Positions 14,663 through 39,398 of a stretch of 47,649 nt of DNA are shown here, piece after piece. This DNA comes from Verrucomicrobiaceae bacterium UBA2429 (GTDB lineage Bacteria; Verrucomicrobiota; Verrucomicrobiia; Verrucomicrobiales; Verrucomicrobiaceae): assembly GCA_002343505.1 (NCBI GenBank), contig DDQZ01000082.1:13997-61645 (forward strand), in the 5' to 3' direction. The notes beneath the pieces are model-generated. The model was not told the origin of the DNA, did no database searches, and saw only the letters and a list, made by a program, of their open reading frames with translations. Position numbers and translations under genes: made by a program. Positions within the stretch are counted from its first letter, which is position 1. The number at the start of each line of letters is the position of its first letter.

Positions 14663-15355
14663 TCAGGGCCGGTAAACACGCGTCTTGCCGGTGTAGGAGT
14701 CAATCTGGACGCAAAAATAATTCCGTGGCTGGGCGCTACCGGCATCCTTGCTCTCCACGATGGTCAGAAAACTTTCATCGTAGGGAGGCACGGTGTAATC
14801 CAGGGCCACGGCCTGGGCCTCATCGGTGCTGGAAGATCCTTTCAGCATCTTCATGGAGCCGTCGGGAAAGAATCTCATCGCCGCGTAGCTCACATTTTCA
14901 GGTTCGGTGCTTCCCGGCGGGCGGAAAAGATAATTTCCCGAATCGTCCGGCCTCTGCCGGTTCGTTGTCTGCAAAAGAGGAGACAACTGCTGGGTGCGCG
15001 AGAGGATGATGCCAGACTCCAGGTAATAGGCCTCGGAAAGGGAGCGTTCCACGCCCGATTGCGGACTATGCACCACCTGGTAAGCATAAAACAGATCGTC
15101 CCCCGGCCTGTCGGAACTGCTGTTGATGTAGCTGTAAAAGCGCATCTCTACCTCTGAACCCATGGAAATGGCGCTCTGCTGAGCCAGGCTCAACCGGTTG
15201 ATCAGGGAATCCCCCGAAGAACTGAGACGTGTCGAGCGGATCACATCCAGCAGCGTCGGCGTGACGAGGGCGACGAGAAGCGCGATGATGCCCACCACTG
15301 TGATCATCTCGATCAAAGTGAATGCGGCGGCTTTGTTTCGGCGGAGTGGAGTCAT
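14663..15355 (-). CDS. Verru_Chthon cassette protein D, GspH-like pseudopilin
   Basis: A 230-residue prepilin-like protein. From the ATG at 15355 the leader MTPLRRNKAAA is followed by FTLIEMITVVGIIALLVAL, a type IV prepilin N-terminus. The likely cleavage is after Ala11, with Glu at mature position 5 and a membrane helix at about 12-34. The next stretch, LLDVIRSTRLSSSGDSLINRLSLAQQSAISMGSEVEMRFY, resembles GspH/FimT minor pseudopilins (helix, then 'LA...AI..G..V'). The remaining beta-rich domain is lineage-specific. I recognise it as the D protein of the four-protein Verru_Chthon cassette. It lies 25 bases after gene C and is the last cassette gene before guaB. Role: probable tip or minor subunit of a pseudopilus-like structure (inferred). 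Confidence 0.85.
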   Translation of the reverse strand: MTPLRRNKAAAFTLIEMITVVGIIALLVALVTPTLLDVIRSTRLSSSGDSLINRLSLAQQSAISMGSEVEMRFYSYINSSSDRPGDDLFYAYQVVHSPQSGVERSLSEAYYLESGIILSRTQQLSPLLQTTNRQRPDDSGNYLFRPPGSTEPENVSYAAMRFFPDGSMKMLKGSSSTDEAQAVALDYTVPPYDESFLTIVESKDAGSAQPRNYFCVQIDSYTGKTRVYRP

Positions 15356-15380
15356 GGGAGAGGGCTTGGACGCGCAGGGT

Positions 15381-16520
15381 TCAGGTGCTCCACTTGGCGC
15401 CACGCAGCGCCACCGTGGTGGAAAAGATGCGGTAATTGACGCGAAACTCCTCGCGAAGAACCCTGGCCACTTCCTCAAGCGACTGGTTCAGTTGTGAGGC
15501 GGGGCTGCCGTTGATAATGTCGTGGATCTGGGTTCCGAATGGTGGCGACTGGCCATCCCCGCCGCCATTGGTTTGCACAAGCCTCTCCGCAGAACGCTCG
15601 TCAATCGCCACCAGCACCACCCTCACGAGTGGAGGCAGGAGGTATTGCGTGCCCTGCTGTCCCATGCCCGCCGAGTTCGCCAGCCTCACCTCATCCGAAT
15701 CGTAGGCGAAGTTCTCCGCGATGACCGTGGAGGATGCGCCACCGCCCGCGGAACCAGGATCAAGCATGGGGGATATGACCAGTGCGACAATGTTGTCGGC
15801 GACCGGCCGGTTCATGCCGCGGTTGATCGAAGTTTCGTTGCCGCCGCCTCCGCTTCTGCCTGCGGAATCGGTCAGGCTTCTGCCCGCGTCCTGCATCCAG
15901 GCGTTCCGCTGGTTGGCATAAATGATGCTGCGCTCCGAGGGAGGGGAAAATTCCATGAGCCGATAACGGTACTTCAACGTGCTGGATGTGATGAAACCCG
16001 GCCGGAAAAACTCGTCAGAGCTGTATTGGACATAATAACCGCGTCCGCAAAGCAGCCGGTCCAAACCGGCGAACTGGGGATCATGAGTCACCCCCAGCGG
16101 CGCCTGAAAGAACACGGCACTCCCAGGCAGGACTGACGCGCCCCCCGTGGGAATGAGAGTCGAGGCGGGACCGCAGACAAAACGCAGCTCAGTTTTCCGC
16201 TGGTAGCGCGTCGGAGCCTGGGTGGTGGCCGCCACTGGATCCGCCGAATTCAGATAATTGGTGTCATAGTCCACATAAGTGTTGAGCGTGGCCTGACTGA
16301 TGTTGCGGGTGATGATGTCGAAGGCGGTGCGCGCCTCCCTGAACTGGTTGACACGCGCATTGGTGGCGGTCCAGGTGGTCTGCACAGTACCGATGACCTC
16401 GGCGCTGATGAGCAGCAAAATGGCGAGCACGGCGAGGGAGACGAGAATCTCCACCAGGGTGAAGGCGCCGTAGAAAACACGGAGGATCCTTCCGGAAGGA
16501 AGATTTGGGGATGATTTCAT
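15381..16520 (-). CDS. Verru_Chthon cassette protein C, GspJ-like pseudopilin
   Basis: A 379-residue prepilin-like protein. The ATG at 16520 gives the leader MKSSPNLPSGRILRVFYGA, then FTLVEILVSLAVLAILLLI. The likely cleavage follows Ala19 (Ala rather than the usual Gly), with Glu at mature position 5. After the helix, FREARTAFDIITRNISQATLN matches the GspJ pattern of an amphipathic helix ending in 'R.I.QA'. The distal part includes Gly-rich loops (SGGGGNE) and ends VALRGAKWST. It matches the C protein of the Verru_Chthon cassette. It sits 25 bases after gene A and 25 before gene D, so A-C-D look like one transcript. The long open frame upstream of 16520 runs into gene A and carries no prepilin signal. 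Confidence 0.85.
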   Translation of the reverse strand: MKSSPNLPSGRILRVFYGAFTLVEILVSLAVLAILLLISAEVIGTVQTTWTATNARVNQFREARTAFDIITRNISQATLNTYVDYDTNYLNSADPVAATTQAPTRYQRKTELRFVCGPASTLIPTGGASVLPGSAVFFQAPLGVTHDPQFAGLDRLLCGRGYYVQYSSDEFFRPGFITSSTLKYRYRLMEFSPPSERSIIYANQRNAWMQDAGRSLTDSAGRSGGGGNETSINRGMNRPVADNIVALVISPMLDPGSAGGGASSTVIAENFAYDSDEVRLANSAGMGQQGTQYLLPPLVRVVLVAIDERSAERLVQTNGGGDGQSPPFGTQIHDIINGSPASQLNQSLEEVARVLREEFRVNYRIFSTTVALRGAKWST

Positions 16521-16545
16521 GGGGGGGCTTGTCTGAGTTGTGGCT

Positions 16546-19500
16546 TCAGGGAGCGAAGCGCTTGGATTCGATGACCCTGAACCGGTAATAATCTTCCAGC
16601 GGCCTGAGCGAGAACGGATCGGAAGCGTTGGCATAATCCACCGCGTTGCCAGCCCTCTGCAGGTCACCCTGGTCAATGTAACGCTCGACCAGGAAAGAAC
16701 CGCGAAACTCGCCGGTCATCACATCGCGGTCAGGATCAAACTGCGCGGGGTCCACGGAACGCAAAGACTTGCGGATGGACTGGGCGCGCACATGCACACG
16801 GAAGGTGTTGGAGCGCGTGGTGAGGCGCGCATAGAGGTTTGAATACGGACGTTCGCGGGTGTTGTCACCGGTGGAGCAATGCTCCGCCCAGAAGCGCCCC
16901 ATCGCATTGTCCCTGGCATTGACGTCCGTGACATCTCCGGGCGACACGTTCACAGCAGCCCCGCCGGGAGTGGGATTGGGGATCAAATGCAATTCGCAAA
17001 TCTGGGAGGCCGTGCGGAACAGCCCTCCCCGCATTCCCTCGGGCAGAGTGGAGTTGTTCTGGCTGAGACCAAAATTGAAGCGTTCCTCAAATTGGCGCAA
17101 AGTTCCCTGCACACGCTGGCCGATGGCAAGCTGCCACCAGCGCTGGTCAGCGCCACTGGTCGGCTTGAAACGGTCAATGGCAATGGTGCGGTGCCAGTAG
17201 GCGTTGCGGTTCGCCCCGGCTCCAGTCGCGGTAAGCGGAAGGGACTCGTTGCGCATGACCGGCGCCGTGCTGCCATTGGTCCCCCAGCCTGTTCGAACAT
17301 CCTTGGACAAGTCATAATCCGTGTTGGGCAAGGCTGCGAAGACCTCACCTTTCATGACCGCATGCAGGGCGGTGGCCCTGCGGATGTGGGTGAAGGGCAT
17401 CATCTGGTAGTTCATGTTGATTTTGCCCGCGGTGGATAGCGACTCGCTGATGGCGTAAGGCTCCACCACAGGCATCCAGAAGAGGTCGAGCAAATAATGG
17501 TCCGGAGGAGTCGTCTCGCCTGGGTGCGTGGCATCCGAAGTCACCCCGCCTGTAATACCGTTCGGCAATTGAACATGAGGCCGGAACAGGAGATTCGTCC
17601 ATGCTCCTTCGCCATTGTTATCCCACATCCTCGTCGGCAGGGAGCCGAACATCACCGGCGAGGAGATCATGCGGTTGGGAGTGAAATAACTGCCCTGTCC
17701 GGCCGCCACACGCGACCCCTGGCCATTCGAGCGGAAGTATGTGGCGCGCCACTTCTTCGGCTGGCCGGGTGTCCAGCCAGAAATCCAGAAATCTCCGACC
17801 GCGTAATTGCCCTCATCCGGTTTATTGATGAAGGAACCGACACGCCCGCCGGGATCACTGTCGTCAAAGTCATAATAACGCTGGACGAACGCATGAGCAG
17901 CCCTGCTGGTCGGCGCCAATGTGCTGCGACCGTGGGGTGCATCGGGGCTGCGGGCTGCGGAAACCGTCACATCCGGAGGCAGCGCGCGGACGGTGTTGTC
18001 CACCAAATTCGAGAAACTGCTGGTGCCGCGGTCAAAGCCCGGCTCACCACCCGCCGTGTAGGAGGAGAAATTGTGCGCCATGTACTCATTGGCATCATTC
18101 CAGAAACGGTGCGGGGTCCAATCGGCAGGCTCAACCACCCTTTTCACAAAGAGGATGCGCGCGTCACCATGCGCGGGTTGCATTGCCCGGACCACATCCG
18201 AGCCAAAATGCCAGGGGCGGTCCCACGAAGAAAGCGGGTCACCAGGCCGGGGGCCATACTTGATGCGGTCCGCGATGAACGAAGGGTCCAAAAGCCTGAC
18301 ACCCACATAATTGCCGGAGTCTCTGGCGTAGATCAAAGCCCTGGCGCCAGGCACGCTTTGGGCATTCGCATTGGCAATTCCAGAGCCTGGATCAATCGCC
18401 TGGGGATTGTAAGCACGGGTTTCGGTATCAACACGCTGGCCAGCAAAATCCCTGTTGAACCTTCCTTTTTCAGAATCCTGAGCAATTCCAATAGACCTGC
18501 CGAGCACACCGTCACGGTGGAAACCCCACCAGCGTGGCGCCTGAAGGAGAGGATGATTGTATTCCGTGCCGTCGGGTCGGATGTAATTCACCTGATAAGA
18601 ACCCGCGCAGACAAGATCCGGAGTCGGAGCCTGTCCCGCCGACAGGCGGAAACGGACGACCTGAACCGGCGCGGCGCTCTGCCAGTCGTGAGTGTCGTAA
18701 ATATTGACCGTGATCGGCGGCGAGGAGAATTGAAGCGCGCGATTCCTGTTCACAGTAAAGAAACTCGACACCAAATCCATGTTGAGCACACCAGAGTGGA
18801 CGTTCGAGGTCGCACTCGTGTCATAGCCCGTGTCATCCGGCACCCGCCCCATGCCCTTCACGCGCCGTCCCAATGAAATTTTGCGGAAGCTGGCAAATCC
18901 TCCCACCTCGGGAGTTCCATCCGTCTCAAACAAAGGCCTCTCGGTGCGAATGACCACATTCTGTGTGGTGCTGAAAATGGCCTTTCCATCCACTTCAATG
19001 TTGCTGATGTCATTGGCAGAGATGACAAAGGTCATGTCGGGGATGATTTCCCCATAACCCACGGACGGGCAGAAAAACTCCAAATGCAGCAGCGCCTGGA
19101 CGCGCTTTTCATCCACCTTGAGCGGGGTGTCCTCCTCCAGGGAATGGTTCCAGTTTTCCGCCCTGTATCCCGGGTGTCTGGCGGGCTGGCGCGTGAAATT
19201 CTTGGTGCCTGGCCCGTTTGGCGGCAGGTTGGTGGTATTGTACAACCCGCCGCTCGCATAGGTGTTGAGGGGCGGAAAGTTGGAATAATAGCGGTCCTTG
19301 ATGGATCTGTCCCCACGCCCGGCCCAGCGTACCCCGTCCAGGTTGGTGATTGCGATCTCGTCCATCGCGATATTGCCGAGAGGCAGATCCCTGATCGTGT
19401 AGGTGTTTTGGAAGGCCACATTTTCATCCAATTTCAGGGCTGTGCGTCCGCCGCTCACGTTCGGCACATCCGGGCTGCTCGCGAAGTAATCCACATAATT

Positions 19501-21798
19501 GACCAAATCCTCATCCGCGATCACCGGAATTTGATAATCAGTCGCGGCGGCCCCGCCCTCGGTGGATTTCATCGGAATGCGCCAGCTATACATGTCCGGC
19601 TGCCCATCCGCCGTGCAAATGAATTGAAGGCCGATTTCGCTAATGGAGACAAAACGTCCGAAGCCTCGATAGGTTTTGCCTCCGACAGACCACTCCGCAG
19701 GTGTGACCTGGCCGTGACCGGGCAGAAAGCGGTCTTCGAACGGGTCGTTGATCCGGGCTTGCGAGCGGTTGCTGTCCCGAGTGGAGTTGGGATTGCGCGC
19801 AACACCATCCGTATAAGTCCTGGTTTGCCCCACCAGCCTGTCCCGCTCGCGATAAGTCTGTGTCCAGTCCACCGTGCTGGCAGTGCCGGATGTGACAAAA
19901 GTGGGCCAGTTATTACGGTTCTGCGGAATCAAATAGCTGTCGTACAGGTTGGTGGAACGAATGTAGTCGAAGATTTGCACCAGCACTTGGCGGGTGTTGT
20001 CCTGACCGTATTTTTGCACATAGGATCTTGCCACGGCCCCGCCAGCGCCATCCACTGCGGCGGGAAAGGATTTGTTCATGAGGGCGTCCAGCATCGCCAT
20101 GAGTCTCTGATTGCGCTGAATGTTGATGTCATAACTCGCGCCGCTGGAGCTTGGCGGAATGGTGCGCGCAAAAGTGCGCTGGAAGATGTAATTGTTGCCG
20201 GCCGATCCCAGGCGGGTGCAGAACTCGATCAAATTGTCAAAACCAGTCCTGCGGTCCTGCCTCTCCGCCACCGGCCACATGGCGACGCGCGGCAGGCCGA
20301 ACATGTTCACCTCGCTGGCGCGGCTGTGAGCGGTAAGGAAAGCGGAAGAGCGCTCCAGGCTCTGGCGGTTGAAGAGAGTAGTGCTGCCCGCGACCGCGTT
20401 GTTCAAAACCCTGCGCCTGTCGGAATCTCTCTGGGAGAAGAGCAGTTCATCAACACTGGCGTAGAGACGCTCGCCCGCCGCCTGCTGAATGGCAACCGCT
20501 GTGGCATTGGTCGAGTCTCCAGAAAGGGTGCGATAAGCGTCCTGTTCGAAGCTGCGCGTTCCGGACAGGCTGCCACCAGTATGAATGCGCGGAATCAAAT
20601 CATAGAGCCTCTCTTTGACGGCGAGCGCGTTGGAAAGCGCTGTGCCAGTAATACGGCCCCTGGGACCGTAGGTGTCGAGGCTGCGGTTGTCAGCGAGAGT
20701 CGGATTGGGATAGAGAACGCTGCTGAGGGCAACCGTGGCCGGGTGGCCGGGAAAGCGCTGGTACTCGCTGCGGGCCGGGGGAAAGTCCGCCCAGGACTGG
20801 TCGCGCTCGTGATAGTAGATGGGCTGGCCGGTGTAGGTCGGCTCGGAAGCTGTGTTGATGTTGACTTTGCAGCTCTCGTCATCCGTCCAGAATGCAACAC
20901 GACCCACGATGGGGTTGGTCTCTGAAGGCACTCCATACTGGTCCTGCGGCGAACTGGATTCCCCGCTGCCCAAAGCTCCCGAACTGCCCGCCAAAACCTG
21001 AAAACGCAAAGTTTCATCCAGAAAACCGACAGCGCCATCCCGAAGTATATAGAGCCATTGAACCGGCATGGCGAGCCGGAGCGAGTCCACCGAGCCGCCG
21101 GCCGCGCCTGGCAGGACAATCGCCCTCTGCTCCGGGTTGATATCGGAGGCCCCGGAAAGATCCTGGTTTCTCAGCGCAGTCGCAGTGTTGTAAGAGAAGC
21201 CTTCCACCGGAAATTCATCCCCTGGATTGGGGTCAATGTCCTGCGCGGCACGGGGATCCAGGACCGGGAAGAACGTCAGCGTCGTGGTTGAATTTCCCGA
21301 TGCATCAAGCTGACCCTTGACGACAGGCTCGTTGATGTCCACAAAACGCGCGATGTTGACATCCCGGTTCCAATTCGCAGGGGGTTCGGAATTGGCCACA
21401 AACTGCTGCTCGAATTCATTGGGATTGCTGGCACTGGCCGGCGGCGAGCGGAAAATCATGTCCTTGTCGGAAAAGAGCTTGTATCCGGCGATGAAGATTC
21501 CGGTCTGGCTGTATTTTCTCACCGCCCCCGGCTGCGTGGCGTGAATCACCGGGGCAGCCGCAGTTTCCCGTTCACTGCCCGCGCGGATTTGCGAGACAAC
21601 CATGTTGACGGCTGTGTCCGCAAGCCGCCGGGCAGTCTGCGATGATGAATAAGTGATCGTGGCTTTGTGCTCTGTGTCAGCGACACTGAGGAAGGCCAGG
21701 ATGACAATGGTCGCCAGGGCGAGCATTGACAGCACGATGATCAAGGCGAGACCCTGATGGCGCCGAGCGTCGGCGAGGATGGAGCGGAGCTGTTTCAT
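16546..21798 (-). CDS. Verru_Chthon cassette protein A, very large GspK/PilX-like protein
   Basis: A 1750-residue protein. MKQLRSILADARRHQG is followed by LALIIVLSMLALATIVILAFL: a prepilin-like cleavage site after Gly16 and a membrane helix, but with Ile instead of Glu at mature position 5, as in GspK. The next segment, TITYSSSQTARRLADTAVNMVVSQI, is PilX/GspK-like. Around residues 311-318, DDESCKVNINTAS recalls the conserved 'K.NINTA' segment of GspK. The remaining roughly 1400 residues are beta-rich, with many aromatic and Asn/Gly turns and no enzyme motif I recognise. It matches cassette protein A, the large member. A promoter candidate lies 35-63 bases upstream of the start, separating A-C-D from the 17-kb gene before it. 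Confidence 0.85.
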   Translation of the reverse strand: MKQLRSILADARRHQGLALIIVLSMLALATIVILAFLSVADTEHKATITYSSSQTARRLADTAVNMVVSQIRAGSERETAAAPVIHATQPGAVRKYSQTGIFIAGYKLFSDKDMIFRSPPASASNPNEFEQQFVANSEPPANWNRDVNIARFVDINEPVVKGQLDASGNSTTTLTFFPVLDPRAAQDIDPNPGDEFPVEGFSYNTATALRNQDLSGASDINPEQRAIVLPGAAGGSVDSLRLAMPVQWLYILRDGAVGFLDETLRFQVLAGSSGALGSGESSSPQDQYGVPSETNPIVGRVAFWTDDESCKVNINTASEPTYTGQPIYYHERDQSWADFPPARSEYQRFPGHPATVALSSVLYPNPTLADNRSLDTYGPRGRITGTALSNALAVKERLYDLIPRIHTGGSLSGTRSFEQDAYRTLSGDSTNATAVAIQQAAGERLYASVDELLFSQRDSDRRRVLNNAVAGSTTLFNRQSLERSSAFLTAHSRASEVNMFGLPRVAMWPVAERQDRRTGFDNLIEFCTRLGSAGNNYIFQRTFARTIPPSSSGASYDINIQRNQRLMAMLDALMNKSFPAAVDGAGGAVARSYVQKYGQDNTRQVLVQIFDYIRSTNLYDSYLIPQNRNNWPTFVTSGTASTVDWTQTYRERDRLVGQTRTYTDGVARNPNSTRDSNRSQARINDPFEDRFLPGHGQVTPAEWSVGGKTYRGFGRFVSISEIGLQFICTADGQPDMYSWRIPMKSTEGGAAATDYQIPVIADEDLVNYVDYFASSPDVPNVSGGRTALKLDENVAFQNTYTIRDLPLGNIAMDEIAITNLDGVRWAGRGDRSIKDRYYSNFPPLNTYASGGLYNTTNLPPNGPGTKNFTRQPARHPGYRAENWNHSLEEDTPLKVDEKRVQALLHLEFFCPSVGYGEIIPDMTFVISANDISNIEVDGKAIFSTTQNVVIRTERPLFETDGTPEVGGFASFRKISLGRRVKGMGRVPDDTGYDTSATSNVHSGVLNMDLVSSFFTVNRNRALQFSSPPITVNIYDTHDWQSAAPVQVVRFRLSAGQAPTPDLVCAGSYQVNYIRPDGTEYNHPLLQAPRWWGFHRDGVLGRSIGIAQDSEKGRFNRDFAGQRVDTETRAYNPQAIDPGSGIANANAQSVPGARALIYARDSGNYVGVRLLDPSFIADRIKYGPRPGDPLSSWDRPWHFGSDVVRAMQPAHGDARILFVKRVVEPADWTPHRFWNDANEYMAHNFSSYTAGGEPGFDRGTSSFSNLVDNTVRALPPDVTVSAARSPDAPHGRSTLAPTSRAAHAFVQRYYDFDDSDPGGRVGSFINKPDEGNYAVGDFWISGWTPGQPKKWRATYFRSNGQGSRVAAGQGSYFTPNRMISSPVMFGSLPTRMWDNNGEGAWTNLLFRPHVQLPNGITGGVTSDATHPGETTPPDHYLLDLFWMPVVEPYAISESLSTAGKINMNYQMMPFTHIRRATALHAVMKGEVFAALPNTDYDLSKDVRTGWGTNGSTAPVMRNESLPLTATGAGANRNAYWHRTIAIDRFKPTSGADQRWWQLAIGQRVQGTLRQFEERFNFGLSQNNSTLPEGMRGGLFRTASQICELHLIPNPTPGGAAVNVSPGDVTDVNARDNAMGRFWAEHCSTGDNTRERPYSNLYARLTTRSNTFRVHVRAQSIRKSLRSVDPAQFDPDRDVMTGEFRGSFLVERYIDQGDLQRAGNAVDYANASDPFSLRPLEDYYRFRVIESKRFAP

Positions 21799-21832
21799 GG
21801 CGGTGATTTCAGCGAATTATTGGTTTTTTTCG

Positions 21833-21861: not shown

Positions 21862-21944
21862 GTCAATGCAGAGTATTTACTTGGTTATTACAGAAGATTT
21901 TTTTGACCCGGATCGGTTCCCATAGCGACCTGGGGAATGACAAT

Positions 21945-30900: not shown

Positions 30901-33900
30901 CCGAAATTGTTCTGGGCAAATGTGTTGGGGGCCAGATTGGTGTCCAAACCCTGGACAACCAGCTTGCCCTCAAGCAACCGTATCTCCGCAAGGCCGGCGT
31001 TGCCGCGCATTTCCAGCGTGCCTGATCCGGATTTGGCAAAAATATCGGCGCCGGAAATGTTGCCTGTGAAGACGGAGGTGGTGCGCTCATGGCCGATATT
31101 GATCTCCGCAAGTTCAGACAGTGTGATGTTGCGGTTTGAAGACGAGGTCATCCCCACATACTGAAGCGTGCCTCCGTTGAATGTGAGATTGGCCGCCGCG
31201 TTGCTTGATGCGCCTAGGCTGCCGGGCACGCCGCCGTCCGTAAGCTGTTGCGCTCGAAGAGTCCCGGCACCGATGAAAGTACTGCCCGTGTAATTGCTGT
31301 CGGCATTCAAGACCAGGGTACCGGCACCCAGTTTCTCCAATCCAACAGAGGGAGTGAAGGTAAGCGGGGACACGATGCCCGTGTACACATGGTTCGCCGT
31401 GTCCACGGTGATTCCGTTGGCATTGAGGACGCCAATGGTGATGTCGGACTCGTTGACAATGGTCTGCACGCGGTAATTGGCGGGAATTCCAGGTCCGCTG
31501 ACGGGCATGCCGATGTAAAGATCATGCGTGGCAAGATTGCCCTGCGCGTCCACCACGCCGGTGATGCGGTTCTGGGCGAACTGGCGGATGGAGCCGCGCA
31601 TCTGGATGCTGCCGTCAAAGGTGTAAACATTGCGCGTGTTGTCCCCGGTGGTGATGTCGGCGCTGACAATGACCGTGCGGCTGTCAATGATCTGCGCGAT
31701 AGTCGTGCCACCCGGCATGCCGGTGCCCGTGACCGTCATACCGACATTGAGCTGGCTGGTGTCACTGTTGTCGCTGACCCCGATGAGACCGGTGATGATG
31801 CGGTTCTGTGTCGAGGCGGCGACGCTGGGCGCGGCCAGGCGGCCGGTCCTGTTGAACGACTGGCGCTGGGTCAAAGGCACGTTGACGACAAGATCGCCGA
31901 GGTCGTTGTACTGGTGGAAGACAAAGTTTTGCAGGGCGCCCTCGTTTCCGGCCATCAGAGTGCCGCCGCCGGAAATGATGGAGTCATTGGCACCGACGGT
32001 GGGGGACACCAGCACGGCTCCGGTCTGGAGCAACTGCCCCGATGCGCCGGCCAGCAAATTCAAAGTCGCGGGCAGCCCGGTGGCAAAACGCAGCGTGTAA
32101 GTGGAGGCGCCGTCATTGACCGGAATCGGAGCGCCGCCTCCCAGGACATCGGTGTTCAAGTTCAAGCCCCACTCCGTCGAGTAATCGAGAAAACCGTCCA
32201 CCGGGCCGTCATTGAAACTCGTGGCAGTCGCGGTCGCATTACGCGCCCAGGAATAAGTCTGGCCGCCGTTGTCGTCCACGCCGTGGGCGAGAAGCTCGCC
32301 GGGAGCTGCATAATAAACGTTGGTGTCAGAGCTGGCATCAGGCGCGCTGCTGAACACCTTGACGATGCCAAGGGCGTTTGCATTGCCCGCAAGCGCGGCC
32401 ACGATGGCGTCCGCGGAGTTGTTGGCAGCCGTGGTGGTGATGGTGATTCGCCACGGACTTTCCACTGTTCCCGATCCACCTCTGCCGACCGAGATGGCGC
32501 CATTGCTGCCGCCGTTATAAGCGATGCGCACCCGGATGGTGCCATTGCCCTTGGAGCCGGAGAAACCGGTGGGCGAGGTCTCGGCGGGGTTCGGGTTGGG
32601 ATCCGCCTGGAAAATCAGGGAGGCCGGACCTGGGCGCTTCACCGCGCCGAATGTTTCCACCGTGTGAGTCCCCGTGCCAAAAGTCACGGTTTGCACCGCA
32701 GGCCCGAAAGGCGTGACCGAAACACGGAAGCTGCGGGAGGTGGCCTCGGTCACATAATAGGTCGTGTCCGCCGCCAAACCGTCAGGCAATTGGCCGGTGG
32801 TGGTAAAGCGCACAGGGACTCCGGCTGCCAGATAGTGGACCGGCTCAACGTCCGGCACTTTCAACATGCCCGTGGTCTCATCCACAGAGAAAGTGCGGCT
32901 GACCGTGCCAGGGATCACCAAGAAGGCCTGAACGCGCGCGTCGCGAACAACCGCCCAGCCGCCGAGGATGCCGTTGATGTTTGGCATGTCCACCTTGGCC
33001 AAGCCAGGGCCGTCAAAGTAAATCGAAGACCCCGTCTGGCGCGAGATGGTATTGAAACGAACGACACTTGCCCCGCTGTCCCGGAAGACCTGGCTCGCGC
33101 CCGCCTGGAGGCTTAATGTGCTGACAATTTCCTCATGAGTGCCCCCCACAAGACGCAGGATGCCGCCGCGTCTGCCACCACCCATGACGAAGGTGGAGTT
33201 GTCCGTCAGTTTGCTGTTGTTGTTGGAACTGTAATCCAGCACCAGGGTGCCCGCCTGAAGAGTGTAGCTGGAGCGGGAGTGGTCCATGACATCGGTCCTC
33301 ACGGCGGGATTGGCCGTCGCCACGGTGGGGTTGATGCGCTCCCCTTTCAGCACGACGGTCCCTTCACCAAGCTGCGTGATCGTGCGGTTGCCCAGGATAT
33401 TGCCTGTGAGAGTCAAGCTGGCATCCAGACCAATGGTCCAACTGCTGTTGGCCTGGGTGTCCACGTTGCCAGCCCATGCGGCCTGGGCGCGGATCGGCAC
33501 ACCAAGTCCGCCACCATTGAAAATGATGGTCTCGGGGGCCGAATAGTCCACGTTGCCCAGATCAAGCCTGCCGCCCATGACATAGATGCCCTCGGAGGTG
33601 TTGCCGGCGACTGTCGCCGTGTAATAGACATGAATACCCGTCGTGGAAAAATTGACCGGCGCGCCGCCCGGCGTGGTTGACACCTGGAAGTTCGGGCCAC
33701 TGACTCCTGTCGCGGCGTTGACGACAAAGTAGGTGATGTTTTCGGAAATTCCGACTGGCAGCAGAGGCGGGTCAATGGCAGTGGCGCCAAACACCAGGCG
33801 CGTGCCAAACATCACGGGCGTGCCATTGGGCAGGTTGCCCGTGAACCTGTCAGTATCGGGATTGGCCGTCGTGGCGGCCACCGAGCTGATATTCGGCACA

Positions 33901-36900
33901 TAGGTGACATTGGCTCCATCAGACAGCAGGTCCACCGCCTGACCACCGAGGGTCGTTGACACTTTAAATGTGCCGGCCACCGTGTTGGCCTCGACCACAT
34001 AATAACGCTGCCCGCCAGTAATGCCTCCTGGCAGTGTCGTCTGATTGAACTGCGGAAAAGTGAGTTCCGTGCCGTTGAGCAGGTTGCCGGTGAATGTGTC
34101 TGCCGCGAAAGAGGCCGTGGTGGCGACGCTGGAGGTTCCGGCCGCGTAGTTGCTCTCAAGCCTGAGCACGCCCTCAAGGACCGAAGTCTGGCCGCTGTAG
34201 TCCGCAGCCTTGCCGAGCAGCCACCACCCCGAACCGGTTTTTTGCAAGCCCGTTGGCTCCATCGCGGATTTGTCACCCAGTTGCAGGGCGAGTGTGTTCA
34301 AACCTGTGTTCACACCACTGAGTGTCAGCAGGCGGGCGCCGTTGCCCTCAAATCCGATCGTGTCAGACGCCACCAACTCGTCAAAGAGGATGAAGTTCAC
34401 ACCCATGGTGACACTCGCGGCGCGATTAGCGCCATTCGCCACCAGCGTGCCGCCGTTCGGACCTGCTCCAAGAGTAAAAGAACGGTCCGTGCGCTGCTGC
34501 ACGGTGGGGCTGAAAGAGAGCGCTCCACCATTGAGGATCAAACGCGACGCCGCCCCGTTGCCGCCCGTCCCCAGGGATGAAACCACGCCCGAAAAAGGCA
34601 TGTTTCGCACATCAATGACGCCGTCATCTATGCGCACGACCCCAGAAAAGCCGCTTTGCGTGCCGGTGAGCGTTAGCCGGCCCGGTCCGCTTTTGGTCAG
34701 ATTCAGCAAACCGCCGCCACCACCGTTGTCGAGTTGGCCGGCGAAAGTCTGGTTCTGCTCCAGGTCCAGGGTCAATGTCGCTGAGGAGGCGGCCGCATTG
34801 ACAACACGGGAGAGGGCGTTGCCGCTCAACTGGGTGAAACGGTGGTTGATGCCCTCAAGCTGCACCTGTCCATTGTTGCCCAAGGCGACCTTGATCCCGT
34901 TGGTGCCGAGAGCGGCGGGATTCAGCAGCCTCAGGATGCCTGAAGCCATGGTGACACTTGGGAAATCCTGCCCGCCCTTGAAAGTGTTGGCACCGGTGAT
35001 GTTGAGCGTGCCTCCCAAAACGCGGATTTCCTCGGTGAAATTGTTGTTGCCGGTCAGATTGAAAGTCGAGCCTTCCATCAGCAGTCCGCCGATCGTGTTG
35101 TTTCCGTGGATGTTGATCAACCCCTCGAAACTGCCCTCTGTTTTAATGCCTGAAAGGAAGGAATTGGAGCCTCCGGGTGTTCCAATGGTGATGCTGTTGC
35201 TCTGGCCATTGTTGGCATTGGCTCGCACAGCCAGCTCCAGGGGCCCCTCGGCATGAAGGGGGTTGGTGATGTTCACATGCACGATGGGCTCGCCGGCGCC
35301 TGTGGTGGGGGCGTTGTTAGGATTGGCAAAACCCACTTCGAAACGCCCTCCCGCCGGGCCGATGGAAAAACCCCGGTTTCCATCCGTGAAGTCAAACACA
35401 TTGTCCGGCGCGGGATTAGGATGAGTGATGTCCGTGCGCCGTCCAAAAATCATGGCCGATCCGCCATCCAGGCGGAAATGATCCGCCCTCGGCGCGGAGG
35501 GGATGGCCCCCAGCGCGCCGATGCCGCCCACCATCAAGGTGCCGTTGCTCACCACAGTCGGCCCGGAATAAGTGTTGCCGAGGTTGTTCAAGCGCAGAAA
35601 GCCCGGCCCCGCCTTGACCAGGCTCAAACTGCGAGGATCGCCAAAGTCGCGCGCCTGGTTGGTGAAGCCGGGGGAGATGGGCTTGCTGACGACAAATTGC
35701 GTGGAACTGTTGAAGGCGGTGATGACCGTTCCATCAGGGATGCCGGCGCCAATAAAGACCATGCCAATCTCCAAGCCAGCCGTGGTCTGGCCCGCGCCGA
35801 CAATGTTGACCGTTGTGCTCTGATTCGTAACCGTGACATTGCGGGAAATGGTGTAGTCACGAATGGCCGCGTTGAAAGTCAGCGTGCGCGCCGCGGCCGC
35901 TTTGCCGGTGGTGCCGACGATGGTGATCAACTCGCGGTCCCCCAGCGCCTCCGTGCCTGCGGTGACGAATCCCAGAGCCTGGGAGTTGATGGTGTGGTCG
36001 CCATGATTGGAGAGCAGCCCGCCAGTGACGATGTCCAAACGCTGCTGATTCAAAGTAAGCGCCCGGTTCTGGGCGGCGGCCTCCAGGTCAGGCTGGATGT
36101 TCAAGGAGTTGATGGTGCGCCGCGCGGTGAGAGTCTGCGCGACGCTCATCTTGACATTATTGGCAGCGATCCAACCCACATCCTGATTGGAGTTGTTGTA
36201 GTCCGCAGCCAAAAGCTGCGTCACGCCGTTGGCGCCATACTTCACCCACTCATTGTTGGAGTATGCCCAGCCACCGATGATGCCATTGACCAGGGCGGGC
36301 GCGGCATTGAACATGATCCGGTTTCTCGTGTCCGTGCCAAGGGTGTTGTTTTCAACGGTGGTCACACCGCCGACGAGCTGCTTGGCCTCGAAGTCCACCA
36401 CACCGCCCGGGTTGCGCTGAAGACCCGCAAAAGTCAGGGTGGAGGTGCGTCCATTCGCCGCCCGGTAGCCTATCACCTGGAGGGAACCGCCGTTCAATAC
36501 CAGGGTGCCCGCCGTCTCGGAGAAGCTGGCAGCGCTGGCGTCATTGATGAACTCAAAAACCCCGCCGTTGCTGATGATCGGGGTGGAGTCCGGCAGGCGG
36601 TTGGTGTTGTTCGAAAGATTGGTGTTGGACAAAATCAAAGCCGAGCCGCTGGCCCCGGCGTGAATGGCCAGGGAACGACCGCTGATGGTGATGTCCGTGG
36701 GTGTGCCGGTGATGCGTCCATCCGTGTTGTTGGAGAAACTGAATGTCAGCGCCGTTGCATTCGAAATGGAGGCATTGTTGCTCAAAGTCACCCTGCGGTT
36801 GACCGCGTCAATGGCGGTCACCGTGGTTCCGCCCGGCACGCCGCCGCCCGTCACCCTCATGCCCACCACCATGTTCGAACTGTCGGTGATGGTCACGATG

Positions 36901-38807
36901 TTGGAATTACTCGTGGTGCCCGTGCTCGTTTTGCCGATGGAGAAATCGCTCTCCAAAACCAAATTGGCCTGCTTGATGTGGATGGAGCCGGCGACATTGA
37001 CGGCTGTGTTTACCCAAGTACCCAACTCCTGGTCGCCCAGACCGAGCACCGCGCCAGAAATGTTCATGGTGCTTCCCGTGTTGTTGAAGCGTCCGGAAAA
37101 CTCGATGTCTCCGCCGATGGAAATGTTGCCGCGCAGATTGATGTTCCTGTTCAAAGCCACGTCACCGACGCTGATCAAGTCACCTCCGATGCTGATGCCC
37201 GCGGCACTGGCGTTGAGATTGAGCGTGCCATTGTTCATGGTGAGCGAGCCGCCGATGTTCTGCGTGCCGAAGATTCCCAGCGTCCCCGCTCCCGTCTTGT
37301 TCACCGAGCCCGAACCGCTTACCGAAAGATACTGGTCCGGGTAATCCTTGGTTGGAACCGAGCCGGGTATGGCGGGAAAACTTTTCCGCATGTTGACCGT
37401 GCCAGTGACGTCGAAGTTGAGCTGCGAATTGTTCGTGATGTTGCTGCGAAAGTTGGTGGTGTTGAACAGGGTGAGCGAACCTCCGGAAACCAGCGTGTCA
37501 CCCGTGTAGATGATGTTGCCGCCCGCGAGGGTCAGATTTCCGGTTCCCTGCTTGGTGATGCCCAACCGCGCGCCGCCGCTCACGGCCCCGTTGGAATCCG
37601 CCTGCTGGAGGTTGTTGCCGGTGTTGTCGCGGAGAAACCCGTTGACCCTCGAATTCAAACTCCCGGCAATTGTCAAAACCGCCGCAGTTCCGACGGCCTC
37701 GCCCTCGCGGTTCTGAATCACGGCGCGGTCACCCACATCCAGAATACGGCCGACCGTCTCATTGCCGCCCATGAGCTTGAAGTAGGCGTTGCGCCCAACT
37801 CCGCTGATGGAGTCAAAAATCAGCGAGGCCGAATCGCTGATCTGGTCCAGGTTTGTCCGGCCTTGCAAGAGCTGCAGGACCGCATGACCGTTGGTGCCGC
37901 GGGTCGTGTTGCCGATGATGATGTCGCCACCCGTGGCGTTGCCGGTCGTGGCGCCAAGCTCAACCTGGGCGCCCGTGCCTGTGCCGTTTCGATTCCACAG
38001 CCAGAGATTGACATTGTTCCCCGTGTTGTTGCCTGTGAGAGCCAGCGTGCCATTGCCCACGGATGTGAGAGTTCCAGGGCCTGAAATCGTGCTGGTGACT
38101 GTGACGCGGTTGCTGATGATTCGGGCGACGAGATTGCTGTTCAGGGTGACGGGGGCGTTGATCACATCCGCGCCGCCCTGGAATTTGTTGAGGTAGGCGT
38201 TGCCGCCCGAAAAACTGGCATTGTCGAAAACAAAAGAGCCGCCCGTGCCGCTGTTGAAGGTGTAGATTTGCGTGCTTGAAAGATCGCCCAGGATCATCCG
38301 CCCATAGGTGCGGTTCCCGTCCAGGGTCAAGACACGGTCGGCGGTGATGTCCGTGTTGAAAGTCACCGTGGAGCCCACTCCTCCGGGCGAGGGCGGCGGG
38401 GCGATGGTCACGGTGGGGTTCGCCGTGTAACCGGAACCTCCGGTGTTGACCGTGATGCTGGCCACGGAACCGCTTGCGTTCAAGTTCGCGGTCGCCGTCG
38501 CACCACTGCCGGTGCCGGTGATCGTGACCGTGGGAGGCGTGATGTAGCCCGAACCCGCGTTGGTGACCGTGATGCTGACAACCACCTGGGCAGTGCCGCC
38601 GGTTCCGCGGGCGGCAGTCGCCGTGGCGGTGCTGCCGATGGTTCTGTAAAACGCCGCCGGATTGGCAAGCGAGCCGTTGGCGTTTGAAAGCCAGGAGCCG
38701 TCCCGCCTGAAACTCTGGGCGGCGGCCCCGCCAATGAGAACGGTCCACAGCAAAGATGTCAAAAGGCGCGCTGCCAGGGTTCTCGAAAATGGTTGAATCC
38801 TTTTCAT
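21945..38807 (-). CDS. Giant secreted beta-helix protein with PATR repeats, nested propellers and Ig domains
   Basis: An uninterrupted 5620-codon gene. Residues 1-30 are a signal peptide ending GGAAA before QSFRRDG. Residues 76-137 hold two GSGY-x-x-x-P-x-V-x-I repeats. About residues 150-3300 and 4090-4600 carry roughly 13 autotransporter-associated beta-strand (PATR) repeats of the form 'KxGxGTLxLxGxNxYxGxTxVxxGxL'. Modules with GMxVxGxGIP and LPxGL...TTYYV are interspersed. About residues 3300-4083 form one propeller interrupted by another. Five Ig-like domains (W...Y.C/V) span about 4606-5083, then a putative-Ig (He_PIG) domain at 5100-5183 and a two-part C-terminal domain ending LSGQVIFEPR. 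No C-terminal autotransporter barrel, PEP-CTERM or LPXTG motif is seen. Likely a cell-surface adhesin or matrix protein; its place between cassette genes B and A suggests they export or display it (inferred). Confidence 0.85.
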   Translation of the reverse strand: MKRIQPFSRTLAARLLTSLLWTVLIGGAAAQSFRRDGSWLSNANGSLANPAAFYRTIGSTATATAARGTGGTAQVVVSITVTNAGSGYITPPTVTITGTGSGATATANLNASGSVASITVNTGGSGYTANPTVTIAPPPSPGGVGSTVTFNTDITADRVLTLDGNRTYGRMILGDLSSTQIYTFNSGTGGSFVFDNASFSGGNAYLNKFQGGADVINAPVTLNSNLVARIISNRVTVTSTISGPGTLTSVGNGTLALTGNNTGNNVNLWLWNRNGTGTGAQVELGATTGNATGGDIIIGNTTRGTNGHAVLQLLQGRTNLDQISDSASLIFDSISGVGRNAYFKLMGGNETVGRILDVGDRAVIQNREGEAVGTAAVLTIAGSLNSRVNGFLRDNTGNNLQQADSNGAVSGGARLGITKQGTGNLTLAGGNIIYTGDTLVSGGSLTLFNTTNFRSNITNNSQLNFDVTGTVNMRKSFPAIPGSVPTKDYPDQYLSVSGSGSVNKTGAGTLGIFGTQNIGGSLTMNNGTLNLNASAAGISIGGDLISVGDVALNRNINLRGNISIGGDIEFSGRFNNTGSTMNISGAVLGLGDQELGTWVNTAVNVAGSIHIKQANLVLESDFSIGKTSTGTTSNSNIVTITDSSNMVVGMRVTGGGVPGGTTVTAIDAVNRRVTLSNNASISNATALTFSFSNNTDGRITGTPTDITISGRSLAIHAGASGSALILSNTNLSNNTNRLPDSTPIISNGGVFEFINDASAASFSETAGTLVLNGGSLQVIGYRAANGRTSTLTFAGLQRNPGGVVDFEAKQLVGGVTTVENNTLGTDTRNRIMFNAAPALVNGIIGGWAYSNNEWVKYGANGVTQLLAADYNNSNQDVGWIAANNVKMSVAQTLTARRTINSLNIQPDLEAAAQNRALTLNQQRLDIVTGGLLSNHGDHTINSQALGFVTAGTEALGDRELITIVGTTGKAAAARTLTFNAAIRDYTISRNVTVTNQSTTVNIVGAGQTTAGLEIGMVFIGAGIPDGTVITAFNSSTQFVVSKPISPGFTNQARDFGDPRSLSLVKAGPGFLRLNNLGNTYSGPTVVSNGTLMVGGIGALGAIPSAPRADHFRLDGGSAMIFGRRTDITHPNPAPDNVFDFTDGNRGFSIGPAGGRFEVGFANPNNAPTTGAGEPIVHVNITNPLHAEGPLELAVRANANNGQSNSITIGTPGGSNSFLSGIKTEGSFEGLINIHGNNTIGGLLMEGSTFNLTGNNNFTEEIRVLGGTLNITGANTFKGGQDFPSVTMASGILRLLNPAALGTNGIKVALGNNGQVQLEGINHRFTQLSGNALSRVVNAAASSATLTLDLEQNQTFAGQLDNGGGGGLLNLTKSGPGRLTLTGTQSGFSGVVRIDDGVIDVRNMPFSGVVSSLGTGGNGAASRLILNGGALSFSPTVQQRTDRSFTLGAGPNGGTLVANGANRAASVTMGVNFILFDELVASDTIGFEGNGARLLTLSGVNTGLNTLALQLGDKSAMEPTGLQKTGSGWWLLGKAADYSGQTSVLEGVLRLESNYAAGTSSVATTASFAADTFTGNLLNGTELTFPQFNQTTLPGGITGGQRYYVVEANTVAGTFKVSTTLGGQAVDLLSDGANVTYVPNISSVAATTANPDTDRFTGNLPNGTPVMFGTRLVFGATAIDPPLLPVGISENITYFVVNAATGVSGPNFQVSTTPGGAPVNFSTTGIHVYYTATVAGNTSEGIYVMGGRLDLGNVDYSAPETIIFNGGGLGVPIRAQAAWAGNVDTQANSSWTIGLDASLTLTGNILGNRTITQLGEGTVVLKGERINPTVATANPAVRTDVMDHSRSSYTLQAGTLVLDYSSNNNSKLTDNSTFVMGGGRRGGILRLVGGTHEEIVSTLSLQAGASQVFRDSGASVVRFNTISRQTGSSIYFDGPGLAKVDMPNINGILGGWAVVRDARVQAFLVIPGTVSRTFSVDETTGMLKVPDVEPVHYLAAGVPVRFTTTGQLPDGLAADTTYYVTEATSRSFRVSVTPFGPAVQTVTFGTGTHTVETFGAVKRPGPASLIFQADPNPNPAETSPTGFSGSKGNGTIRVRIAYNGGSNGAISVGRGGSGTVESPWRITITTTAANNSADAIVAALAGNANALGIVKVFSSAPDASSDTNVYYAAPGELLAHGVDDNGGQTYSWARNATATATSFNDGPVDGFLDYSTEWGLNLNTDVLGGGAPIPVNDGASTYTLRFATGLPATLNLLAGASGQLLQTGAVLVSPTVGANDSIISGGGTLMAGNEGALQNFVFHQYNDLGDLVVNVPLTQRQSFNRTGRLAAPSVAASTQNRIITGLIGVSDNSDTSQLNVGMTVTGTGMPGGTTIAQIIDSRTVIVSADITTGDNTRNVYTFDGSIQMRGSIRQFAQNRITGVVDAQGNLATHDLYIGMPVSGPGIPANYRVQTIVNESDITIGVLNANGITVDTANHVYTGIVSPLTFTPSVGLEKLGAGTLVLNADSNYTGSTFIGAGTLRAQQLTDGGVPGSLGASSNAAANLTFNGGTLQYVGMTSSSNRNITLSELAEINIGHERTTSVFTGNISGADIFAKSGSGTLEMRGNAGLAEIRLLEGKLVVQGLDTNLAPNTFAQNNFGQTGIGELRLAGGSLELRGAREGNMTLTLGGQMYVDAGASEVRAVGVSGFNPNSLISGAISRTTQISLMGAEEITSVLRNVGGTVLFVEEPQVGGSVANILLNIPETDRARVMPWAVYQDVTNIAQPGVNNFATVALSNGAVISADAASLYDLGSFFMNADNWGTQEGSATIDASEGGRIEISLDNGVESTAGSNVLVVTDLLQVEFGNLIPDMSVFGPGIPSNTKVVSLLTNPLRVVLSKNATSSNFNATYSFIRDRAYFGTLTADRALNTLRYFTPVDSTITVPAGRTLQLLSGAILAAANVRGGEKAIVGGGSISGAAGAVDGGDLVIHNHNPVASFSIGANVVDNVLSMVNSGTTSVGSNILIVSPLGKTALVRLKPGMIISGPGIPGGTTVIGTDLNFDLVYMSANAVSAQSNKTYTFLDVTSFVQSGTGTTILSGANTFTGRTFVHGGVLRLDSANAVPGGIGNTGGTGGIVVKGGVLGLGHGDFTRDIGTGAGQIDFQGAGGFAAYGADRTVNIGGQAVPEALRYGNNGFVPDGSSFILGAHDATHKTIVLNTLDLGSFSQAVRVNDGPALIEGELAGGFTGLGRLVKFGDGTLRLSGSSSHSGGIEIAAGRLIAADVENVFGVGTGTGTTVRMGVNSTNTRKDAALELVVEGGTIEKNLRVGLVNSRGADWLERGSVEESGDIVGTHASTAVVNGHPAIAYYDSTNGDLKYVRAADPRGASWLPPVTVASRGDVGQFPSLAVVNGNPAISYYDATNKLLMFVRSTDISGVFWGGQVIVDSAPVNAIGVQSDGKAVIGGTFAELDGVEKTRLARVNTDGSIDNTFTSTANGEVLGIVIQSDDKILVVGSFTEINDTARNRIARLNADGTLDTGFNPNANGVVRGLLIEPDGRILVWGSFTSIVGTGGTSGTGRNRIARLNTNGTLDTGFNPNANGEVRAVARQTDGNLILGGAFTTIGGTTRNRIARVTTAGALDAGYNPNYNNTVSCILMLPNGKALTGGVFTTIDGAGRRRERLARLNTDGTLDQSFSVIANAEVRDLVLQADGKVLAVGAFTTFGDHARRSIARLHAEGSPESAVDPVDSAFNADANEEVRAVVQVASGKLLVGGEFSNIGGATCHFLARLELDSSADAAFDRQTVDRGCYTSLAVVRQQANNGLEAPAIAYYDTLGARLRYSRALDANGASWAVSLVLDSSANVGAGTSLKMVNIGGDLITKNTTQNNVTITGVAANGTPAVAYYDVTNGNLKYVLANNPAGSDWSAPVVVESANDVGSHLSLNVVDGFPAIAYYDATAKSLRYVRATNVGGVTNNLRDAQGNILTRAINALVFDPAWGAPGVVDSGGDVGMYPSLEIITDGTSAQGRPAIAYYDAAPGTKNLKYVRALNVTGSFPWGTPQTVASEGDVGMSAGLVLTDGVPGIAYHDATEGDVKFLHLADSTGYSRIVLGDGTLWQGGMNLQGRAFFDVEAAALATISGLVQGDAGITLSAQGTLLLTNAGNNFGDSLPGPGPDVNSAMIVRAGTLAVGANGAIGQGTVELGDATPQIITVERASTFASLAALKGRFDADHNGIFDNAGGPGAFVEVDITIDGRTYAEDDQGTLILVKDERENPQWNGVYQIIFNGDLQPDGTMNLARVPQMDSVAELAYGTQVRVLNGTHAGQSFFIASKVLELNVSAVQWIRDYADSNAALLASTGGLTISNSIDVNAGNGSGLAVLGGMADFTTGNTTFSGAVLLQNRLPGVRETKTVGLQSFTNTGYGITFSGLFSESNGGNGASQDSMSLRKTGAGTASLTNANTFFGGVTVQQGTLLAMNTTGSATGSGAVAVNAGAVLGGTGFIGGAVTLTGAAGNKAILRPGDPTMVSAVETLTINAPLTVGPESVVEFAIGAANITRLVANSVTVTGTGQFLVQLLDGFIPAVDTVFDLVDGTINLPGGANARDHLVLPGHVSWDTSQFLSQGTIRSTGLTTPVQINTHPVITVPAGGSPVNPGGSVVVTFSATVTGTPEFGFQWQKSPVGLNQFVNVGAAVFTISTTATFTLTGILESDEADYRLVATNGSGTFTAISNPVTLIVNDPPTITDEPDSIVVNPGQTAIFTVAATGPGPITYQWQRNFVNLTSPSATTDTLEIANAQDANEGNYRVLVSNGASVVTGPTISATATLTVRDPVVITSFPATTEASNGDPVNLTAGHTGTGTPDMPNPGDPAFTYLWERNEGSGFTPIAGAPNSSQLTLPPVALADNGHQIRVTVSNSFSTDTRTTTLTVTEGTPSFQAQPESRTVIAGTPVTLQITPGGSSAGRTFQWRRGKTALKNGGGITGVNTPTLEFSSIDLKQAGDYSCEIKNNFGTRQSATAFVTVVAAPGTVIPVQTGKDFTLTLAFAAAKGVTPQFKWQKDGADLPVDDRISPDNLPKLVVKKSNTGAVTDSGIYTCVVTGPGPSPALTEQQPGGQFDVRVFSDKPALALEEFPDAMVGAEFKYQIKVDNDPAKAPVSYAAKPLPSGLKLDTKTGRITGWPKVAVENLPVVITVTNSFSKPPVSDTRLLTIRPVPERAVGVFAGWLPRHQELNGFMGGRFDMTVTTAGAFSGRVTLGAVAYSFKGVLELDPALVGAALPTATVEIPRKGKPLPPPLILTFTINTAAAPANTANRLASASIGDGTLQNTIAFNAWRSIWAPKALPPVTPAEFAPSKDNAYYTLALLSPVPGAEDIPRGSGYASFTVGADGRLTLAGRTADGQTITGAQFLGPQGQILVYQVLYKTKVKGSLLGNVSLTSAVPSELTDNKIGGTLEWNCPPNDAKTNFTYREGFGNATPVVVTAVGGHYAAPVDPNLVLGLQTGADNAVLTFENGGVEDSETNPNLDGPDLQRPQQGWVSVTTGNKLLTPAAEIANNGLVKISIVSKTGVFKGDFTLKDFPAGGIKPDVRKTPFIGVIVDEDDGATAGRMWTGSGHFLLRQHPNDLPVTNPPTTLKTAPLLSGQVIFEPR
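23560..24990 (-). repeat. Five tandem Ig-like domains in the giant protein
   Basis: Five units of about 85-100 residues, each with a central tryptophan strand (FQWQKS, YQWQRN, YLWERN, FQWRRG, FKWQKD) and a later D/G-Y-x-C/V strand (ADYRLVA, GNYRVLV, HQIRVTV, GDYSCEI, GIYTCVV). They follow the PATR region and precede the He_PIG and C-terminal domains. The same kind of unit makes up the protein at 39614-43078. Confidence 0.8.
26560..28915 (-). repeat. AYYD-type seven-repeat propeller, split by an inserted propeller
   Basis: Repeats of the form 'W...VVxSxGDVGxxxSLxxVxGxPAIAYYDxTxxxLxYVRAxDxxGxxW' occur seven times by their AYYD-type motif. Two lie upstream and five downstream of a delta-60 array. 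The third repeat is divided: its first strand VIVDSA comes before the insert and CYTSLAVV...PAIAYYD after it. Flanking sequence returns to PATR-like repeats on both sides. Confidence 0.7.
27480..28525 (-). repeat. Seven delta-60 repeats (second, nested propeller)
   Basis: About 50-residue repeats, each with 'xxDGKxLxxGxFTxIxGxxRxRIARLNxDGTLDxxFNPNANxxVxxxxx', occur seven times in a row at about residues 3427-3776. This is the delta-60 repeat family. At DNA level the units are about 150 bases and diverged, so they are old duplications rather than a recent expansion. Confidence 0.8.
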
Positions 38808-38867
38808 AGGGGTCGCGATTGGATGATGACCGGTCCGCCAGACGGGTTGGCGGGGTTGAAAGAGTTC

Positions 38868-39398
38868 TCAGGGGATGTTCGCCAGAGTCGCCATGTTGGC
38901 GATCAACTGGGTGTGAACCTTGACGGGGACGCCCGATGAGGGGCTGTCGAAATTGAAGTCAGGCAGTGGCGCGGCCACCAGACGAATCGTGACCCGGCGC
39001 AGATGGTTGCTGGGCTGCAGACTGGCGTTGTTGGTGGGCAGGCGCACATCCGGCTGGGGGATTTCCACGCGCGCCACATAGCTCAGGGCAAAACGGTCCT
39101 GACTGCTGGCAATGCTGACGAGCTCAAGTCCTTGATCATCAAAGTAGCGCACCTTCTTGCCATAGGTGTCAAGAATGGACCAGTTTGTGTTCTGAAGCTC
39201 CCCGACGATGTGCTCGATGATGCGCGCCTCGGCCATCTCGTTGGCCGTTTTCCGGGACATTTCCAACCCGTGCGGCAGCAACCCCAGGATGGTGACCACC
39301 CCCAGGGCCATGATTCCCACCGCCAAAACGACCTCGACGAGGGAAAATCCGGCGGATTTGTGAAACGGCGTTGTCACGGTTTGAAGGGGCGTTTTCAT
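38868..39398 (-). CDS. Verru_Chthon cassette protein B, GspI-like pseudopilin
   Basis: A 176-residue prepilin-like protein and the first gene of the cassette transcript. The leader MKTPLQTVTTPFHKSAG is followed by FSLVEVVLAVGIMALGVVTIL: cleavage after Gly17, Glu at mature position 5 and one membrane helix. The helix continues into EMSRKTANEMAEARIIEHIVGELQNTNW, which parallels the 'A..IA...L..L' of GspI/PulI. The rest is a small beta-rich domain. It matches the B protein of the Verru_Chthon cassette. It has a promoter candidate 57 bases upstream and ends 60 bases before the giant gene, so it is probably co-transcribed with it. Inferred role: minor pseudopilin in a complex with A, C and D. Confidence 0.85.
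   Translation of the reverse strand: MKTPLQTVTTPFHKSAGFSLVEVVLAVGIMALGVVTILGLLPHGLEMSRKTANEMAEARIIEHIVGELQNTNWSILDTYGKKVRYFDDQGLELVSIASSQDRFALSYVARVEIPQPDVRLPTNNASLQPSNHLRRVTIRLVAAPLPDFNFDSPSSGVPVKVHTQLIANMATLANIP

Follow-up and report, generated by a model that had tools for sequence, protein, structure and literature searches.

The 47,649-nucleotide stretch of contig DDQZ01000082.1 from Verrucomicrobiaceae bacterium UBA2429 analysed here (hereafter the window) carries a cassette of four prepilin-like genes, A to D, grouped with a gene for a protein of 5620 residues (the giant). The cassette is a candidate device that probably exports or displays this giant, a predicted role. By sequence or prediction, A and C have folds of the tip type, the cassette proteins carry prepilin signatures, the layout is operon-like and the giant gene is linked to the cassette. 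An initial annotation had proposed a dedicated pseudopilus tip of the GspH/I/J/K type, and its gene order (B, giant, A, C, D) and coordinates were borne out, all five genes lying on the minus strand and being followed by guaB and a GMP synthase gene.

Minor-pseudopilin features of the cassette proteins

All four proteins exceed the curated NCBIfam cut-offs for the Verru_Chthon cassette families and are thus Verru_Chthon cassette proteins: B scores 93.5 bits with TIGR02598 (cut-off 51.4), A 944.7 with TIGR02600 (332.3), C 339.8-340.5 with TIGR02599 (256.5) and D 101.9-102.9 with TIGR02596 (70). The prepilin sites read ..SAG/FSLVE in B, ..YGA/FTLVE in C, ..AAA/FTLIE in D and ..HQG/LALII in A (the slash marks the cut). 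That is, mature B starts at F18 with Glu22 at +5, C is cleaved at A19/F20 with Glu24 at +5, and D at A11/F12 with Glu16 at +5. The residue at −1 is Gly in B and A and Ala in C and D; Ala is also common there in orthologues (29 of 66 for C, 36 of 62 for D) and, judged by eye, in further pseudopilin-like genes of the source genome, and Gly or Ala precedes the cut in every B, C and D orthologue scored. Glu occupies +5 in 55/55 B, 66/66 C and 62/62 D sequences, which are upper counts because the site-picking script gave Glu a bonus for these three proteins. None of 69 A open reading frames (ORFs) has Glu at +5, leaving a GspK-like helix without Glu5. Both patterns are those claimed by the initial annotation.

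Structures were predicted for C and for an A orthologue of 1197 residues, and they connect A to the GspK core fold and C to the GspJ fold. For C, the AlphaFold2 model has a predicted local distance difference test score (pLDDT) of 85.3 and structure searches return a GspJ-type fold; moreover, 42 of 45 C proteins match the GspJ model TIGR01711 at E ≤ 0.01, the window C scoring 29.5 bits against a curated cut-off of 64.85. A conserves FWTDDESCKVNINTA at residues 303-317, and at about 1200-1800 residues, against 340 for the source genome's own GspK, is some 900 to 1500 residues longer than a normal GspK. B and D appear to match PilV/XpsI/GspI and GspH/ComGD models, respectively, and do so weakly. 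Among 29 B orthologues at E ≤ 0.01, 18 match the XpsI model, 13 PilV and 8 GspI, and 32 of 33 D orthologues match the GspH model at the same threshold; the window proteins score 13.7 bits (GspI cut-off 44.35) and 29.0 bits (GspH cut-off 80). The proposed resemblance to GspH/I/J/K therefore stands for the predicted folds of A and C, whereas for B and D it comes down to weak model matches, and the curated cut-offs are missed.

Linkage and co-inheritance of the giant gene

A profile search found 340 A relatives in species genomes, of which the best 76 distinct loci, a sample biased to the lineage of the window, were kept with up to 10 kb on each side. A lay at a contig edge in 10, leaving 66 assessable loci, and in 40 of these a giant gene was directly upstream of A. 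In 33 it was an ORF of at least 2500 residues on the same strand, ending no more than 1.6 kb upstream of A, and in seven (L134, L140, L142, L144, L153, L171 and L190) a truncated or split giant with a tail of the same families. Three further loci (L155, L157 and L160) have an ORF of at least 2243 residues downstream of A instead. As a control, a giant was the upstream neighbour of none of 612 other genes of these loci; under the same rule as for A, with at least 7.8 kb visible upstream, the comparison was 34 of 59 A ORFs against 0 of 404 other genes. The giant thus adjoins A far more often than it adjoins other genes. In seven further genomes, represented by their two best A copies each, 7 of the 14 copies adjoin an upstream protein of at least 800 residues with a PEP-CTERM or window-like tail, one of these positives (G199b) being called by eye. 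At L200, L202 and L205, the cassette has a tandem of two or more A-like ORFs.

The giant is one open frame with, judged by eye, a signal peptide (..GGAAAQ), and Pfam and NCBIfam scans report passenger-associated transport repeats (PATR/TIGR02601), DUF5122 (delta-60) repeats and immunoglobulin (Ig) domains, and no autotransporter barrel, PilY1 or PEP-CTERM family. An orthologue of 5876 residues in the same-genus genome G199 matches it at 45% across 4468 aligned columns and at 40% across 1525; the order there is likewise B-giant-A, C and D lying beyond the stretch examined. The last 451 residues of the window giant gave no Pfam match at E ≤ 10, barrel families included, and its C-terminus is without the PEP motif, helix and Arg cluster of PEP-CTERM. 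It ends instead in a domain of about 420 residues, beta-rich by eye, that is common to 15 cassette-linked giants and to unlinked giants of the source genome on contigs C83 and C12.

The last 450 residues of 51 giants fell into two families with no cross-links at E < 1e-8, a PEP-CTERM kind (32/51) and the window-like ~420-residue domain (19/51). The 40 linked giants divide into 25 and 15, so that the annotated absence of a known anchor holds for the window giant but not across its relatives. In an A tree built with FastTree, which gave long-branch warnings, the window clade (13 rows, local support 100) has the ~420-residue type wherever a giant is seen, and at least 10 changes of giant state, which was scored in four classes, are needed across the tree. 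Five genomes, chosen by contig-name prefix, carry two giant-linked cassettes each, and every giant keeps to its own cassette type: tails match those of the same cassette clade elsewhere at 73% and 61%, against 31% for the genome's other giant, and A behaves likewise (79% and 66% against 38%). Since tails and A both track the cassette clade and not the genome, the cassette-giant blocks are old, stable partners, a bond that need not involve contact between the proteins.

Among 387 genomes of the phylum, the ~420-residue domain exceeds 200 bits in five, all of which belong to the eight genomes whose A passes its cut-off, and matches weakly in 16 more (best 98 bits). Because the five belong to one family, ancestry alone may be sufficient to explain this co-occurrence. 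In genome G234 (C7:106983-108158) the domain lies inside an open frame of 7650 residues, exceeding the window giant. Although only 8 of the 387 genomes have A above its cut-off, 207 match it at E ≤ 0.001, mostly weakly over the first ~60 positions and often at the start of ORFs of 700-1700 residues; outside the named family, large proteins resembling GspK may be common across the phylum.

Possible routes for the giant

The reading we lean towards, by a narrow balance of probability, is that the cassette encodes a complete GspI/J/H/K-type minor-pseudopilin tip that, with a platform encoded elsewhere in the genome, carries its co-encoded, beta-rich giant. In the type II secretion system (T2SS), the four minor pseudopilins form the pseudopilus tip, with GspK topmost and important for substrate binding, according to PMC6211770. 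We infer that the tip assembles, that it uses an unlinked platform and that it binds and exports the giant. Once processed as prepilins, B, C, D and A would assemble into a four-protein tip, which would prime a short pseudopilus on a platform of secretin and ATPase whose genes lie elsewhere. The outsized GspK-like A would be the part most likely to dock the client giant, which would then be carried through a secretin by this platform acting in trans and stay surface-bound by its C-terminal domain, or by PEP-CTERM in the partners of many relatives.

Candidate machinery exists in the source genome, which has seven secretins and 13 T2SSE matches, of which seven are close to full length. Contig C113 carries an apparently near-complete T2SS with its own GspK (the other genes judged by eye). 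A compact cluster on C59 (L099, 3140-8591) encodes one pilin together with a T2SSF protein and two ATPases of the T2SSE type; it gave no other prepilin match and is, by inference only, a possible platform for orphan tip sets. The expectation that cassette genomes have a secretin and a prepilin peptidase held in 8 of 8, but both are also widespread in control genomes (6 and 12 of 14, respectively). Prepilin-like genes also occur elsewhere in the source genome. On C100 (L005, 7760-13104), three are followed by the gene of a 1044-residue protein that begins like A, and together they probably make up a further orphan set of minor pseudopilins; the two on C73 (L098, 5810-7053), close to what by eye resembles a sigma-factor gene, may be a third such set. 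An 84-residue open stretch on C65 (L004, 10001-10225; C65:126334-126558) matches only the C-terminal part of A, at 67.8 bits, and is perhaps the remnant of a second cassette.

Several observations weigh against the tip reading. The whole A model, which is that of the orthologue and has pLDDT below 50 in 189 of 1197 residues, gave no significant Foldseek match (3ci0_K ranked 44th, E 0.56). None of 31 A proteins matched any of the Pfam T2SSK families at E ≤ 1, and A scored 22.6 bits with the curated GspK model NF037980 (cut-off 130); because of these two results, A is GspK-like and is not filed as GspK. No T2SSE or secretin match was found on the contig of the window, which hence lacks the linked ATPase and secretin of a whole T2SS. 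Furthermore, in 23 of the 66 loci no ORF of at least 2200 residues occurs in the flanks examined, which are at least 8 kb on both sides in 13 and shorter in the others. These are mostly from deeper Verrucomicrobiales, and also include L137 and L176, where A is close to that of the window and an oxidoreductase gene precedes it (L176 by eye). Cassettes without a large exported partner, which the initial annotation would have counted against itself if common, are thus encountered in part, and the linkage, although far above the controls, is not universal. The source genome has seven PATR giants above 2500 residues (C48, C71, C83, C50, C97, C31 and C12; four with PEP-CTERM, three with the ~420-residue domain) and one intact A, the six other giants having no A alongside, so that the idea of one cassette per giant fails there. 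Finally, linkage and co-inheritance can be explained by inheritance as a block or by shared regulation. Taken together, the proposal of a dedicated GspH/I/J/K-type tip gains from the folds of A and C and from the linkage, but it is tempered by giants that outnumber cassettes and by cassettes that lack giants.

A conceivable, if doubtful, alternative is display in place of secretion, the giant being a tip adhesin that sits, like PilY1, on an A-B-C-D complex of a type IV filament, with cassette exchange swapping tips on a shared machine. PilY1-like display would fit the same data as export: the giant gene adjoins the K-type gene, whose product is the tip-most subunit, and Ig domains and beta-strand repeats suit an adhesin. 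PMC7541494 describes three clusters in Myxococcus xanthus, each with one PilY1 and four minor pilins, that are presumed to work with a single machine; PilX likewise is without Glu5, and PilY1.3 is regarded by the authors as analogous to T2SS substrates. However, the core of A is that of GspK by structure, although 4 of 31 A proteins give a weak match to PilX_N (best E 0.0058). Pfam finds no PilY1 domain (PF05567) in the giant, searched as two overlapping pieces covering all of it and, for the last 451 residues, at E ≤ 10. None was found in the eight cassette genomes either, a weak negative, as the search control gave no signal. PEP-CTERM, a known sorting tail, ends 25 of the 40 linked giants and points more to anchoring in the envelope than to a place at the tip of a filament.

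A more general version of the tip reading, which we regard as rather doubtful, is that cassettes are client-reading tips for which the client C-terminus, whether PEP-CTERM or the ~420-residue domain, serves as the address, A-B-C-D tips carrying such proteins across the outer membrane in cis when the giant is linked and in trans when an unlinked giant bears a tail of the same type. All 8 of the cassette genomes have an exosortase. PEP-CTERM proteins were first noticed in Verrucomicrobium spinosum according to PMC1569441, and their outer-membrane step is left open or treated as speculative in what PMC1569441, PMC3237569 and PMC9850573 say of it. In Vibrio and Myxococcus, C-terminally tagged surface proteins need the T2SS to cross the outer membrane (as reported in PMC11980579).

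It is unlikely that the giant leaves by another route, whether a general machine or one that its C-terminal domain provides, that the cassette has a different job, e.g. as an adhesive pseudopilus, and that the genes are neighbours through shared regulation or block inheritance. The giant-less cassettes common in deeper lineages, two of which (L199 and L201) follow aroA, and the six unlinked PATR giants would suit such an arrangement, as would the Pfam name of PATR, an autotransporter term, and a C-terminal domain that looks beta-rich and matches no Pfam family. Against it, several clades of A show the linkage, which involves giants with two dissimilar kinds of C-terminus, no barrel family is matched even at the permissive threshold, and the last residues of the giant are, by eye, unlike the usual barrel signal.

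Locus layout and comparison with known systems

The listed ORFs of C and D begin too early; the likely starts, taken as the Met immediately preceding the prepilin motif, are 16520 and 15355 (Table 1). With these, 60 bp separate B from the giant gene and 146 bp the giant gene from A, while A and C, and likewise C and D, lie 25 bp apart. Terminator scans covered 38700-39800 and 21600-22100. The former gave two sites against 1.4 expected, a strong hairpin ahead of B and a weak one on the plus strand; no terminator-like site was found in the latter, which covers the giant-A gap. B-giant-A-C-D may therefore be one putative transcription unit. Upstream, a 1154-residue Ig-repeat protein (39614-43078), apparently exported (by eye), ends ahead of the strong site and is a separate surface protein.

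Table 1. Features of the cassette locus (window coordinates)
Feature	Coordinates	Strand	Basis
Cassette protein B, 176 residues, GspI/PilV-like minor pseudopilin	38868..39398	-	TIGR02598 and model matches
Giant exported protein, 5620 residues: signal peptide (by eye), Ig domains and repeats of the PATR (beta-strand) and DUF5122 types	21945..38807	-	single ORF, Pfam/NCBIfam
Giant C-terminal domain, ~420 residues, unnamed	21945..23237	-	common to other giants; no Pfam match
Cassette protein A, 1750 residues: prepilin-like N-terminal helix, GspK core, very large insertions	16546..21798	-	
Cassette protein C, 379 residues, GspJ-type fold	15381..16520	-	TIGR02599, AlphaFold2, structure searches
Cassette protein D, 230 residues, GspH/ComGD-like minor pseudopilin	14663..15355	-	TIGR02596, GspH model
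Terminator-like hairpin with 10 G-C pairs and a T-rich tail, separating B from the upstream Ig-repeat gene	39548..39574	-	

'Verru_Chthon' was not found in the literature searched, the families being known by their NCBIfam names, and, as far as our searches show, neither the ties of A to GspK and of C to GspJ nor the frequency of giant linkage nor the two tail types have been described in that literature. Four named families without a stated function thereby gain a structural identity, that of a T2SS-type tip in which GspK has grown several-fold. If the tip serves its linked giant, it shows how a single client can be provided with its own tip in a bacterium that has several secretion platforms, and the cassettes offer a direct test of how PEP-CTERM proteins cross the outer membrane; if client reading were true, exosortase/PEP-CTERM proteins would gain an outer-membrane route.

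Compared with the Verru_Chthon A-D models, whose cut-offs are all exceeded and whose names carry no function, the present analysis ties A and C to folds and the set to a giant. GlyGly-CTERM and MYXO-CTERM sorting (PMC11980579, PMC3237569) combines a tag with the T2SS to reach the surface, and the PEP-CTERM of the 25 linked giants is similarly built, but no dedicated tip set is described for those proteins in the relevant parts of these two papers. The FimU-PilV-PilW-PilX-PilY1 sets of M. xanthus, as presented in PMC7541494, resemble the cassette in joining minor pilins to one large exported protein, with several sets per genome; unlike them, the cassette has an A with a GspK-type core and a giant in which no PilY1 domain was found. 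With the T2SS GspK-I-J-H complex (3ci0, 5vtm, 9a1f) it has in common the four-protein set, the prepilin signals, the Glu5 pattern and the predicted folds of A and C, whereas A is enlarged, platform genes are not linked and every curated GspH/I/J/K cut-off is missed. In its operon-like layout with one giant it also differs from that complex. The cassette is best described as a predicted tip of the T2SS type whose GspK is hugely enlarged and whose giant partner is encoded in operon-like fashion.
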